Shown piece by piece: positions 3,080 through 8,153 of a DNA stretch of 34,957 bases (positions are counted from its first letter, which is position 1; each line of letters starts with the position of its first letter). The stretch comes from Nitrospinota bacterium (lineage in GTDB: Bacteria; Nitrospinota; Nitrospinia; Nitrospinales; VA-1), in NCBI GenBank assembly GCA_009873635.1, contig WAHY01000012.1, positions 2,695 through 37,651 of the forward strand. Reading direction: 5' to 3'. A program made the translations under genes and the position numbers. The notes under the pieces were generated by a model. It was not told the origin of the DNA. It made no database searches and saw only the letters and a program-made list of their open reading frames with translations.

Positions 3080-4447
3080 TCAGTCCTGGCGACTTTCATT
3101 GGCTAAATGCTCGCCTTCAGAAATTATCAACTCCTCCCTCATACCCTTTAAATGAACCTTACCCTTTAGAGAAGATGTTCCTTTAAATCGTACGCTGCCA
3201 TCAATCTTCAACTCCTCTAATTCAATCAGGTCAGGGATAACGGGAAAACAGTTTTGAAAGTTTTCTAATTTCTGCAACTTGTCACCTAATTCAACCAAAG
3301 GCAATGAAGCGGACTTCCTTTGAGAGTTCCTAACCAGCCTGCCATTATTCAAACCAAAAAGATTAGATTGAACCAACAATAAATCATCTGTCTTTTTTAC
3401 CGGTAAAAAACGTTCACGGGAAACCACGAGACCCACGGAACCTTCAAAACATTCCAAAGCAGATCCTATAGCAGTTTCAAGCTGTATAACAGGTACACCA
3501 TCAACATTTTTCCTGTTAACCAGAACGCTCAAATCCAGCGGCCCCTCGTCCAGCCTTTCGCTCAATGCCACCAGGTTTATCCAGATGTTATTTGTATTAA
3601 AAACCTTGAACTTACTCTGGTCACAAAATTCATCAACCTTGTCATCAGGAACCCGGGCGATCTCCAACAATTTAAGTTTGCCACCCTGCTGATAAAGAGT
3701 TCCTCCCTTAACATCTGCTGGAGTTTTGGCAGTCATTTCAATCAGGAAAGGGGTATTTTTTTCTAACATATAATTGAGGATAACAGGATCCACCACGGCC
3801 CCGAGGTTGTCTGCATTTGAAATAAAGAGAATTTCCTTGCCATCATTTATCAGCTTTTGCAGAATGCCCTGCTGCAAAACACAATTATAAAAATCACCAT
3901 GTCCGGGCGGATAATAGGCCTGATCTCCAAATATGTTCTCAGCAAGCGGACTCAAACTATCTGAATGCAAGCGAGGAAATTTATTCTGTTGAAAACCGAT
4001 TATTTCTGAAGAAACGTTTAGAGATGTCAAATGTTCCCGGGTTTTTTCATGCGTGTAAAAACTGTTCATCAACAGCAGAGGAATGTTTTGATTCCATTCA
4101 TGATTCAGACAATCAATTTGTTCCACGATCAGATCTAAAAATGTTTTATTTTTCCTTACCTCAATCAGTGACTTTGGCCCCACACAGCCCATGCTGGTCC
4201 CCAATCCGCCATTAAGCTTGCCAACTACAAGCTTAGATAAATGACTAGCGGTCTGATTGTTATCAGGAGATGGGAGGCTGGAAAAATCCAGTAGACTCTT
4301 GGAATCCGGAGTCATTATTGTGCTCCAGTTTTCTACCTTGGAAGGTCCTTTGCGGAACTGGCCAATCATCTTCCAAAAAATATCCAGTTCAATACCTGAA
4401 AGAGAGTTACCAAGCTCTTTCCATAGAGAATCTTTATCATCATTCAT
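3080..4447 (-). CDS. UTP-glucose-1-phosphate uridylyltransferase, eukaryote-type
   Basis: UDPGP-family nucleotidyltransferase (455 residues), forming UDP-glucose and pyrophosphate from UTP and glucose-1-phosphate in the cytosol. UDP-glucose feeds LPS sugars, exopolysaccharide or glycogen/trehalose metabolism. Seen: the nucleotide-binding loop KLNGGLGTSMGCVGPKS at residues 77-93, far closer to eukaryotic UGP2 than to bacterial GalU. Also seen are an acceptor-site stretch GHGDFY, a YYPPGHGD segment and an NADNLGA motif in the middle. The C-terminal part (KGTSSLKGKVHLKG) looks like the left-handed beta-helix end of the family. ATG at 4447 gives the normal N-terminal helix. It is divergent from the 4522 gene with 74 bases between starts. 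A UDP-N-acetylhexosamine specificity cannot be excluded from sequence alone. Confidence 0.88.
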   Translation of the reverse strand: MNDDKDSLWKELGNSLSGIELDIFWKMIGQFRKGPSKVENWSTIMTPDSKSLLDFSSLPSPDNNQTASHLSKLVVGKLNGGLGTSMGCVGPKSLIEVRKNKTFLDLIVEQIDCLNHEWNQNIPLLLMNSFYTHEKTREHLTSLNVSSEIIGFQQNKFPRLHSDSLSPLAENIFGDQAYYPPGHGDFYNCVLQQGILQKLINDGKEILFISNADNLGAVVDPVILNYMLEKNTPFLIEMTAKTPADVKGGTLYQQGGKLKLLEIARVPDDKVDEFCDQSKFKVFNTNNIWINLVALSERLDEGPLDLSVLVNRKNVDGVPVIQLETAIGSALECFEGSVGLVVSRERFLPVKKTDDLLLVQSNLFGLNNGRLVRNSQRKSASLPLVELGDKLQKLENFQNCFPVIPDLIELEELKIDGSVRFKGTSSLKGKVHLKGMREELIISEGEHLANESRQD

Positions 4448-4521: not shown

Positions 4522-5118
4522 ATGCTCGTATTCAAAAAAAATATCTACGCGACCACTCAATCCAATCACCCCGAAAATGATGTTCAGCACAAACTGAATC
4601 CGCGTGAATTTATTTTCAAATCACTCACCACTGACCGGGAAATATTTTACGGGCTGCAAAAACTCCCTCAACTCGAAAGTCGCGAACGTTTCAAAACCTT
4701 ATTCCCTCATGTTTCACAATTTGGATCCATTTTACACGTCAACACATTTTCCCGGTCACTCCTGGAAGGACTGGTTGATAAATATAACTGGTATGGCATG
4801 AACGCGTATCATATGACATATCTTTTTGACAGTCTGCATGGCACTTTTGAGGATTATAGCTACTCTGAGACAGCACAACGAATAGAGTTATTCCCTGAAC
4901 TTCATGGTGAAGGGATAGATTTCGACCAATTTCTCGAAAATTATTTTTTTGGCACTGCGTTTTTAATGGCCCCTGATCGTTTCAACAACATGTCTCCCGA
5001 AGAAAAAAAAAGCCTGAAACTTACCGACCCATGCTTATTTGGGGTGATTAACAGATTAATTCCTACCGAGGAAGAGATTAAGCTCAAGATAAGTCCTAAC
5101 CCTCCATACGCCCATTAA
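4522..5118 (+). CDS. unknown protein, paralog A
   Basis: A 198-residue cytosolic-looking protein with no signal peptide or membrane segment; I do not recognise the family. It is clearly paralogous to the 5853-6461 product. Shared blocks in the same order: an N-terminus MLVFK(K/N)NIY, FPH/YPH (about residue 62), an MNxYHxxxLxD segment (about 94-103), a PELxG motif (about 130), NYFFxTxFLxxPDxFNxxxxEEK (about 139-162) and LFxVINxLxPTxEE near the C-terminus. The protein is rich in Phe, Tyr and His and looks globular and helical. ATG start is preceded by AAGG at suitable spacing and supported by the N-terminus conserved with the paralog. A glutathione peroxidase gene on the other strand separates the two copies. 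Function unknown. Confidence 0.75.
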   Translation: MLVFKKNIYATTQSNHPENDVQHKLNPREFIFKSLTTDREIFYGLQKLPQLESRERFKTLFPHVSQFGSILHVNTFSRSLLEGLVDKYNWYGMNAYHMTYLFDSLHGTFEDYSYSETAQRIELFPELHGEGIDFDQFLENYFFGTAFLMAPDRFNNMSPEEKKSLKLTDPCLFGVINRLIPTEEEIKLKISPNPPYAH

Positions 5119-5142
5119 CCTGACTTTTATCAGCAATAAATA

Positions 5143-5745
5143 CTATTTCCTTAATTCGTCTTCCAGCTTAAGTGTGAGTAATTTGGAATCTGGAGAAACC
5201 TCACTCAAAAAGCTGGCCACGGGGGCACCATCCCTTCCAATTAAAAATTTATGGAAATTCCATTGCGCTTCATTTCTTTCTGGCACCCATTTTCCTTTCA
5301 ACCTGTATAAAATCCATTTTACCCATCCAAAAATAGTTGATTGATACCCACCTGAGCCTTGATGCTTTAAATCACAATCATATAAATATTGATAAAGGTC
5401 AATCTTTTGGGGGCCCAGAACAGACACCTTACTGAACAGGTCGAAAGACACCTTGTATTTATTCATACAAAAAGCCTTAATTTCTTCATCGACACCCGGT
5501 TCCTGTGCCGCAAAATCATTACTTGGAAAAGCCAGAATACTCAAGCCCTGGTCACGGTATTGTTCATAAAGCTTTTGCAAACCTGAATATTGTGACGTAA
5601 ACCCACATTTTGAGGCCACATTAACGATTAAAAGAACTCTCCCCTGATATTCTGAAAGTCTAATTACATCGCCAGAAATGGATTGCGCCTCAAAGCAATA
5701 GATATTTTTTGCAACTGATCTCAATTTATTTTTATAGGAGGACAA
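5143..5745 (-). CDS. glutathione peroxidase family thiol peroxidase
   Basis: Thioredoxin-fold peroxidase reducing H2O2 and organic or lipid hydroperoxides with glutathione or thioredoxin as reductant. Of its 200 residues, the core is family-typical: NVASKCGFT with peroxidatic C47, the FPSNDF loop (73-78) followed by QEPG, and WNFHKFL with W162 and N163. The usual FPCNQF loop is changed: the loop cysteine that often resolves the peroxidatic cysteine is Ser75, and Asp77 sits where the catalytic Gln is expected. C93 and C124 remain as possible resolving partners. There is no signal peptide, so it is cytosolic. It lies between, and opposite to, the two paralogous unknown genes. Its start region abuts the promoter of the downstream paralog. 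Confidence 0.9.
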   Translation of the reverse strand: MSSYKNKLRSVAKNIYCFEAQSISGDVIRLSEYQGRVLLIVNVASKCGFTSQYSGLQKLYEQYRDQGLSILAFPSNDFAAQEPGVDEEIKAFCMNKYKVSFDLFSKVSVLGPQKIDLYQYLYDCDLKHQGSGGYQSTIFGWVKWILYRLKGKWVPERNEAQWNFHKFLIGRDGAPVASFLSEVSPDSKLLTLKLEDELRK

Positions 5746-5748
5746 GGG

Positions 5749-5778
5749 TCGAATTGAATCCCAAAATTCAGGTATAAT
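5749..5778 (+). promoter_or_regulatory. possible promoter for paralog B
   Basis: A consensus -10 TATAAT (5773-5778) lies 18 bases after a TCGAAT -35-like hexamer (5749-5754). Transcription would begin near 5785, about 70 bases before the 5853 start. The element begins directly beside the divergent peroxidase start. Confidence 0.4.
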
Positions 5779-5852
5779 AATTGTAATAATACACTAAAGG
5801 AACACTGTAAAATATAGCAGCTTAGAAATAAACCAATACCATTATTTTTTAC

Positions 5853-6461
5853 ATGCTTGTCTTCAAAAACAATATTTATGATACTTCATCACCCGGAAAA
5901 CTGGTTCCCAGTACCGACTCAGATTACAATGCCAGCTTTGATCCACTCCATTTCATTGAAGTTGCACTTGATCAGGAAGATGAAGTTCTATCTTTTATTG
6001 AACGCCAACCCAGAGAATACTGGATAGAAGACTTCCTGCAGTTCTACCCCCACGCTGGAAGAATGAACTCTTTACACGCGCTAAAAGAGCTTCTTAATAT
6101 ATTGATGTCTGGGTTAAACAAAACTGCATGTTGGCAGCATATGAATACATATCATTTTTGTTTTTTATATGACGTTCTGGTGCGGTTTTCTTTTAACTAC
6201 AACCACGATAATTTACAGGAGAAATTATCCTATCTTCCAGAGTTAAAAGGGAAGGATGTATATCTTGGTAACTTTGTAAACAATTATTTTTTTAACACAC
6301 ACTTTCTTACTGACCCCGATCATTTCAACTCCCTGGAGAAAGAAGAGAAATCAAGCTATGACTGCCCTCACCTGTTTAGCGTGATCAACGGCCTCAGCCC
6401 CACACGCGAAGAAATGGCATTAAAAGAGTCCCAAGACTACCCTTATACAATTTTTGTTTAA
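5853..6461 (+). CDS. unknown protein, paralog B
   Basis: A 202-residue soluble-looking protein paralogous to the 4522-5118 product; the family is not recognised. The conserved blocks are MLVFKNNIY at the N-terminus, FYPHAG, HMNTYHFCFLYD, LPELKGKDV, NYFFNTHFLTDPDHFN with EEK, and LFSVINGLSPTREE. The middle third (about residues 35-90) has diverged most, and the paralogs match best in the C-terminal half. No catalytic motif stands out, though conserved His, Tyr and Asp in the YHxxxLxD and PDxFN blocks could form a site. There is no Shine-Dalgarno before the ATG, but the start is fixed by the shared N-terminus. It probably has its own promoter. Function unknown. Confidence 0.75.
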   Translation: MLVFKNNIYDTSSPGKLVPSTDSDYNASFDPLHFIEVALDQEDEVLSFIERQPREYWIEDFLQFYPHAGRMNSLHALKELLNILMSGLNKTACWQHMNTYHFCFLYDVLVRFSFNYNHDNLQEKLSYLPELKGKDVYLGNFVNNYFFNTHFLTDPDHFNSLEKEEKSSYDCPHLFSVINGLSPTREEMALKESQDYPYTIFV

Positions 6462-6608: not shown

Positions 6609-8153
6609 TTGCTCCCTGTTGTCACAGCAGCACAAATGCAGGCAATTGATCGACATGCAATTGATGGTTTTGGCATTCCCGGTATAACACTTATGGAAAA
6701 TGCCGGTGTCGGAGTTGTCCGTGAATTACAAAACCGCATTCCGGGTCTATCTGGCAAAAAAGTTTTTATCTTTTGCGGCAAGGGGAATAACGGTGGCGAT
6801 GGTTTTGTCATAGCCAGGCATTTGTTCAACCTGGGTTCTGAAGTTAGGGTTCTATTGGCTGGAAAGTATTCCGAGTTGAAAGGTGACGCTGAAACAAATG
6901 CCAATTCCGCACGCAACATTGGAGTGCAACTTGATGAAATTAATCCTGATGACTTGAACTGCCATGACCACAAACTGCGTCACTGCGACATAATCATCGA
7001 TGCTTTGTTTGGAACCGGATTGAATAAACCAGCCAGTGGCTTCATGGAAAATGTCATTGATAAAATTAACCAGTATAAAAAGTTTGTGGTCTCGGTAGAT
7101 ATAAATTCTGGAGTGGATTCTGATAGCGGCCAGTTAATGGGTCCTCATGTCAGGTCAGACCTGACACTTGCCCTCGCATGTTGGAAAAAAAGTCATTTAA
7201 TCCATCCTTCAGCCAGTGTAATGAAGGAAGTAAGCTTCATAGATATTGGAATTCCGGTAAAAGCCGTTGAAGAACAGAATATCCAGATTCATCAGTCTGA
7301 AGAGGATGACATCAAATGCTTTTTCCCGGAACGCAACCCTAATACCCATAAAGGGAGTTATGGTCATGTTCTCGTTTTGGCCGGATCTAAGGGGAAAGAA
7401 GGAGCCGCCGGCTTGACTTCTCTGGCCGTTTTAAGAGCCGGCGCAGGTTTATGCACCCTTGCCCTGCCAGATTCCTCTCAGGGTGCAAAACTACCTATGG
7501 AAGTAATGACCGTACCACTTCCTGAAACCCGGGAAGGAACCTTATCGTTGCAGGCAAAAGCAGCCATTCTTGAACTCATGAAGGACAAGTCAGTCGTTGC
7601 CATAGGACCCGGAATCTCCACGAACCCGGAAACGGTTGCTTTAATGGGCGACATACTTCCACAGGTTCTATGTCCGCTGGTTCTTGATGCCGATGCATTG
7701 AATGCAATATCGCTAAATAAAGAATGGCTGAATACGTTAAAACCTGAAACGGTTCTCACCCCACATCCGAAAGAAATGTCCCGTTTAACCGGAATTCCAA
7801 CTGAGGAAATCCAGAAAAACCGTATTGGAACAGCCTCAAAGTTTTCAAGCGATCATAATTTGAACCTTGTTTTAAAAGGTTCGCCAAGCTTAATTGGATT
7901 AGCTGATGGATCAGTCGTTATCAACCCCACAGGAAACGCTGGCATGGCAACCGGTGGATCAGGTGACGTTTTAACAGGAATCATAGCAGGATTAATTTCC
8001 CAGGGCTTATCTACTTCAAAAGCTTCAATTGCTGGGACCTATATGCATGGTTTGGCAGGCGATCACTTTGCTGAAGTTGAAAGCCAAACCACCCTGATTG
8101 CCGGTGACTTATTAAGGTCCCTTCCTGATACCCTGAAACGCATTTTACCCTGA
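6609..8153 (+). CDS. nnr: bifunctional NAD(P)HX epimerase/dehydratase
   Basis: Metabolite-repair enzyme. The N-terminal YjeF_N domain epimerises hydrated NADHX/NADPHX, and the C-terminal ribokinase-fold domain dehydrates the S form using ATP or ADP, restoring NAD(P)H. All 514 residues fit a full fusion. Seen: GKGNNGGDGFVIARH (57-71) in the epimerase half; then GHVLVLAGSKGKEGAAG, the DADALN and TPHPKEMSRL motifs, VLKG, and NAGMATGGSGDVLTG, the ATP and substrate site of the dehydratase. The start is TTG: AAGGAG (6596-6601) sits seven bases upstream, and no ATG gives a complete N-terminus. Its stop lies one base before the tsaE ATG, indicating translational coupling. Confidence 0.95.
   Translation: MLPVVTAAQMQAIDRHAIDGFGIPGITLMENAGVGVVRELQNRIPGLSGKKVFIFCGKGNNGGDGFVIARHLFNLGSEVRVLLAGKYSELKGDAETNANSARNIGVQLDEINPDDLNCHDHKLRHCDIIIDALFGTGLNKPASGFMENVIDKINQYKKFVVSVDINSGVDSDSGQLMGPHVRSDLTLALACWKKSHLIHPSASVMKEVSFIDIGIPVKAVEEQNIQIHQSEEDDIKCFFPERNPNTHKGSYGHVLVLAGSKGKEGAAGLTSLAVLRAGAGLCTLALPDSSQGAKLPMEVMTVPLPETREGTLSLQAKAAILELMKDKSVVAIGPGISTNPETVALMGDILPQVLCPLVLDADALNAISLNKEWLNTLKPETVLTPHPKEMSRLTGIPTEEIQKNRIGTASKFSSDHNLNLVLKGSPSLIGLADGSVVINPTGNAGMATGGSGDVLTGIIAGLISQGLSTSKASIAGTYMHGLAGDHFAEVESQTTLIAGDLLRSLPDTLKRILP

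Follow-up and report, generated by a model that had tools for sequence, protein, structure and literature searches.

Two neighbouring genes of a Nitrospinota bacterium, here named A and B, encode members of a real and previously undescribed protein family, and the intervening glutathione peroxidase gene is most probably an optional passenger inherited together with this chromosomal slot. A connection with peroxide defence, though tempting, is doubtful and is most simply explained as positional inheritance. To judge from sequence comparison, A and B are the short members of one family of four paralogs (A, B, C and D), which appears to be essentially confined to the order Nitrospinales, a group of marine nitrite oxidisers. 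Nitrospinota are major nitrite oxidisers of the sea and all 64 genomes of the order that were examined harbor the family, yet it is contained in none of the searched family libraries. With four paralogs, one N-terminal signature and steady neighbours, it represents a compact target for annotation and structural studies.

The window, that is, the whole stretch of 34,957 nucleotides that was analysed, contains the following features of the locus:

3080-4447, minus strand: UDPGP-family uridylyltransferase gene (PF01704), usual left neighbour of A
4522-5118, plus strand: paralog A, ORF of 198 aa, predicted to be all-helical, undescribed Nitrospinales family
4522-4548, plus strand: N-terminal segment of A, MLVFKKNIY, conserved across aligned members
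5143-5745, minus strand: glutathione peroxidase gene (PF00255), spacer between A and B, judged to be a passenger
5853-6461, plus strand: paralog B, ORF of 202 aa, same undescribed Nitrospinales family as A
5853-5879, plus strand: N-terminal segment of B, MLVFKNNIY, conserved across aligned members
6609-8153, plus strand: NAD(P)H-hydrate epimerase/dehydratase gene (nnr; PF03853 and PF01256), usual right neighbour of B

Across the Nitrospinales, the usual gene order is UDPGP (minus strand), A, spacer, B, nnr and tsaE; exceptions include genome G029, where A has moved. Further to the left, the minus strand encodes a 142-aa protein with a signal-peptide-like start (2269-2697), which recurs close to UDPGP in several genomes of the Nitrospinales and has no match in Pfam. 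A scan for promoters and terminators revealed no excess over shuffled sequence, and a search for repeats gave nothing informative.

A preliminary description of this DNA had regarded A and B as paralogs, and their alignment bears this out. The two proteins are 34% identical from end to end over 201 columns, and the BLASTP E-value of 3e-36 argues against chance similarity. The N-terminal block MLVFKxNIY and the five further blocks described in order were all found at their places in this alignment. At the N-terminal block the two proteins agree in eight of nine residues. Among 188 nine-column windows of the alignment it is the only one with at least eight identities (hypergeometric p of about 0.001, uncorrected for the choice of the window). 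The nine codons concerned differ between A and B by four synonymous changes and one non-synonymous change. Since four of nine codons are synonymously changed, the identity has been maintained at the protein level, by selection on the protein, and recent gene conversion is ruled out as the source of the shared N-terminus.

C and D, with about 287 and 296 aa respectively, are longer and are encoded elsewhere in the genome; they have the core and the N-terminus in common with A and B. The core profiles of the paralogs are similar in hhalign, with a probability of 98.7 and an E-value of 3.5e-16 for the A/B profile against the C/D profile over residues 1-154. Furthermore, the N-terminal pattern ML-x-[FL]-x-[KNST]-[ND]-I is present in 33/33 aligned members. 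Seven residues are invariant in this set (A numbering: M1, L2, I8, L35, D103, F147, L188) and F4 is kept in 31 of the 33, in line with the earlier suggestion of a conserved short segment at the N-terminus. A family member is detectable at E 1e-5 in 64/64 Nitrospinales genomes and in one of the 13 genomes from the rest of the class (G067, a partial member at this threshold); A and/or B are present in 54 of the 64. The named relatives belong to records of Nitrospina, Nitrospinaceae and Nitrospinota, the one label from outside the phylum being a contig filed as Emcibacteraceae. Beyond the phylum, relatives were sought with B by scanning for exact peptides, and by tblastn in plasmids and phages, which gave nothing useful. 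The contig filed as Emcibacteraceae (L015, 4441 bp) carries A, peroxidase and B with 72-80% identity to the window; it probably stems from a Nitrospina and was misbinned.

The window's genome contains the start pattern ATG-Leu-x-Phe-x-[KN]-[ND]-Ile five times: four copies open the genes A, B, C and D, and the remaining one (C15:20671) begins no listed ORF of at least 60 aa. Over the 64 genomes, 184 hits were obtained versus 5 for the reversed control; these are pattern matches, part of which have been traced to family genes. A targeting or sorting tag, which would make the four paralogs cargo of one compartment or machine, could account for this excess of hits and for a short motif at the N-terminus of four proteins that have otherwise diverged. 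Such a tag would, however, be expected on other proteins as well, and in the window's own genome no unrelated protein was found to carry the motif, the extra hit included. We therefore consider this explanation quite improbable.

Searches of the family libraries confirmed the earlier statement that the family was unrecognised, as far as Pfam, NCBIfam, PHROGs and PDB sequences are concerned. For A and B, 0 Pfam families were found at E 10, none thus above curated cut-offs, and no Pfam family was matched consistently across the 33-member set. Neither the two proteins nor this set gave a meaningful match in NCBIfam or PHROGs; the scattered hits concern chiefly single members, with a best E of 0.0049. 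A sequence search of the PDB returned no relatives. Models of A and B calculated by AlphaFold from 27 sequences are of fair predicted quality (pLDDT 83.6 for A and 82.3 for B; pTM 0.82) and are all helix. The fold searches proposed at the outset produced nothing convincing among the matches listed: Foldseek found nothing significant (best E 1.9 for A and 3.3 for B), and the best Z-scores in VIA were 3.1 for A and 2.8 for B, the top match (Z 3.1) being an acyl-CoA oxidase with an rmsd of 6.0 over 122 aligned residues. A search of a viral fold library gave nothing useful. It is possible that a relative exists in a known but structurally unsolved family. In the accessible portions of the literature on Nitrospina and Nitrospinae genomes, proteome and signature proteins, no description of the A/B family was recognised.

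The conservation pattern bears on the question of function. The invariant residues of the family are mainly hydrophobic, with D103 (33/33) as the sole invariant polar residue; N94 is present in 31/33 members, and H97 is kept in the aligned A, B and C sequences, those of D having Y or F instead. A and B might be enzymes of unknown fold with N94, H97 and D103 as active site, a reading which the retention of these residues supports. We regard it as unlikely, since the Y or F of the D rows leaves one invariant polar residue family-wide and no known enzyme family or fold matching A or B was found. In A, B and C, the N-x-Y-H...D motif could nevertheless have a catalytic role. Because of the mostly hydrophobic invariants, the exchange of H97 in D and the single invariant polar residue, a non-catalytic role is preferred: A and B would be small soluble helical proteins that self-associate or bind some other molecule. 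Their binding face may be formed by the core helix around N-x-Y-H-x5-D, and the N-terminal segment may act as a clip whose hydrophobic residues L2, F4 and I8 fit into a groove. This picture of soluble binding proteins with a docking clip is offered tentatively. The clip is a guess, as the models are only moderately confident about residues 1-10 (mean pLDDT 62 for A and 69 for B).

In a tree of 39 A and 42 B rows, the A proteins form one clade and the B proteins another, with an SH-aLRT of 100. The trees are of a quick type and show long branches for G047, G048 and B_G046 with B_G059. Separate A and B clades across the order imply that the duplication predates the families of the order, and A and B appear to be the products of one tandem duplication older than its radiation. 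A tandem duplication with an insertion had been one of the possibilities considered in the preliminary description; the tandem duplication stands, but as an ancient one, and a recent event is ruled out by the two clades.

In 36 genomes A and B are located on one contig, and in 36/36 they are adjacent. The arrangements in the 64 genomes comprise A with peroxidase and B (24), A and B without peroxidase (12), B with peroxidase (5), A with peroxidase (1), A alone (11), B alone (1) and none (10). Where B is missing, A can directly adjoin nnr (L097, L098, L099); in G002 and G031 the slot lacks A and retains the peroxidase. As each of the two is retained alone in some lineages, the pairing of A and B is not required, and an obligate heterodimer is ruled out. 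Nine of the ten genomes of the order without A and B were checked for nnr at E 1e-40 (G054 was left out). Eight of these nine also lack nnr, so that sequence gaps are likely. In G010, a small genome that is 97% complete, nnr adjoins UDPGP (L142:3144-6276) and the A-peroxidase-B cassette is deleted, leaving at most a B-like trace of 16 residues (E 0.056).

The gene between A and B is unrelated to either of them. No ATG is found near its listed start (5745, minus strand), and since matches to orthologs begin at codons 7 to 15, a TTG at 5724 (minus strand) may be the real start. The preliminary description had considered selection for an association with peroxide defence. In such a relationship A and B would work with the peroxidase as redox partners or regulators, with conserved cysteines relaying electrons. 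A PF00255 gene is present in 30/64 genomes of the order, and 30/30 of these genes adjoin A or B. B and the peroxidase gene are divergent, with 107 bp separating the listed ORF starts, and A, peroxidase and B were lost jointly in G010. In addition, according to PMC3578206 and PMC8026999, neither catalase nor superoxide dismutase is present in cultured Nitrospinae.

Against this stands the absence of the peroxidase from 12/36 genomes with A and B, in which no PF00255 gene was found anywhere in the genome at E 1e-10. The suggested selection for peroxide defence is not supported by these genomes, and the proposed check of whether homologs keep the peroxidase neighbour had a divided outcome: every peroxidase adjoins A or B, but a third of the A-B pairs do without it. 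No peroxidase gene occurs in genus groups g4 and g5 or in families f2 and f4. In G052 and G050 of family f4, two of the 12, the A-B spacer is filled by a DUF5069 gene (L086:5099-5521 and L087:2143-2565; family match checked in L086). Nor does the cysteine motif of B follow the peroxidase. With G036 and G029 scored as lacking it, the CPC motif of B occurs in 6/29 genomes with peroxidase and in 7/13 without, and the cysteine in the same block of A in 20/22 with and 11/17 without. The opposite strands, moreover, preclude a common operon. A role of A and B as partners of the peroxidase is thus highly unlikely, and an obligate partnership is ruled out by the 12 absences and the independence of the cysteine motif of B.

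The passenger reading accommodates these data. UDPGP and nnr are likewise usual neighbours of A and B across the order, and the main groups of the peroxidase tree match those of the A+B tree, on which the peroxidase state changes at least three times (45 rows, leaving out the masked G036 and the rearranged G029). Because UDPGP and nnr are usual neighbours too and the main groups of the trees agree, the 30/30 adjacency fits one inherited insertion equally well or better. The joint loss in G010 and the constant adjacency stay compatible with a functional link.

The surroundings of C and D are different from this slot. D and a radical SAM/SPASM gene are arranged divergently, 254-445 bp apart, in 23 genomes belonging to families f1, f2 and f4, with an example from the window's own genome on contig C4 (L104:3162-5426). 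The radical SAM protein passes the general SPASM model alone among the NCBIfam models listed (27.6 bits versus a cut-off of 27). At E 1e-60, 87 copies of its gene were found in 52 of the 77 class genomes searched; the copies near D are 74-91% identical to each other, and a second copy (about 65%) is located elsewhere, with a family member nearby in none of the loci examined. Of 15 D loci examined, 11 also have hflK, hflC and trkA next to D (L104, L108, L110-L113, L115, L116, L118, L120, L123). C (L105:4572-9836) lies near genes for NAD+ synthase, an ElbB-type glyoxalase and a dTDP-glucose dehydratase-like protein, and adjoins a 236-codon frame without family match.

The divergent arrangement with D in three families, as well as the presence of the radical SAM gene in 52/64 genomes of the order and 0/13 other genomes of the class, which resembles the distribution of the family itself, might suggest that the family members are partners or substrates of this order-specific enzyme, recognised through their common N-terminus. 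Yet A, B and C are not known near the gene, no family member was found at nine second-copy loci and five first-copy loci away from D, and 64 of the 87 copies have no listed D within 1 kb, some of them lying at contig ends. This idea is extremely improbable. Only marginally more credence is given to a broader version, in which A to D would constitute a lineage-specific system whose N-terminal ML-x-F-x-[KN]-[ND]-I serves as recognition element for a shared partner, possibly the radical SAM/SPASM enzyme, and whose helical fold is so far unseen in the PDB.

Taken as a whole, an old, order-specific family of four paralogs with a passenger peroxidase and a non-catalytic helical binding role is slightly favoured as the explanation of the locus; for the family and the passenger, our confidence is high. 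A tandem duplication before the radiation of the order would have given rise to A and B, which would then have been passed on vertically with UDPGP and nnr on either side. In some lineages the peroxidase gene may have been inserted into, or retained in, the A-B spacer, and in others it may have been lost; it would play no part in the function of A and B, as far as gene content can tell.

In comparison with known systems, A and B resemble no known family in Pfam, NCBIfam, PHROGs or the PDB, the scattered hits going mostly to single members and none of them being consistent. The middle gene, in contrast, is the opposite-strand glutathione peroxidase that it had been taken for, matching PF00255 (GSHPx) with an E-value of 2e-37 and 127.5 bits, above the gathering cut-off of 27. 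From the BtuE type (NF007900) it differs in a score beneath the curated cut-off (E 1.1e-47; 161.9 bits versus 270). The catalytic tetrad of glutathione peroxidases is typically Cys/Gln/Trp/Asn, with the Gln in an NQF block, where the middle gene has NDF. It is like the glutathione peroxidase/BtuE type in its NVASKCG block, which holds the Cys, and its WNF block, which holds the Trp-Asn.
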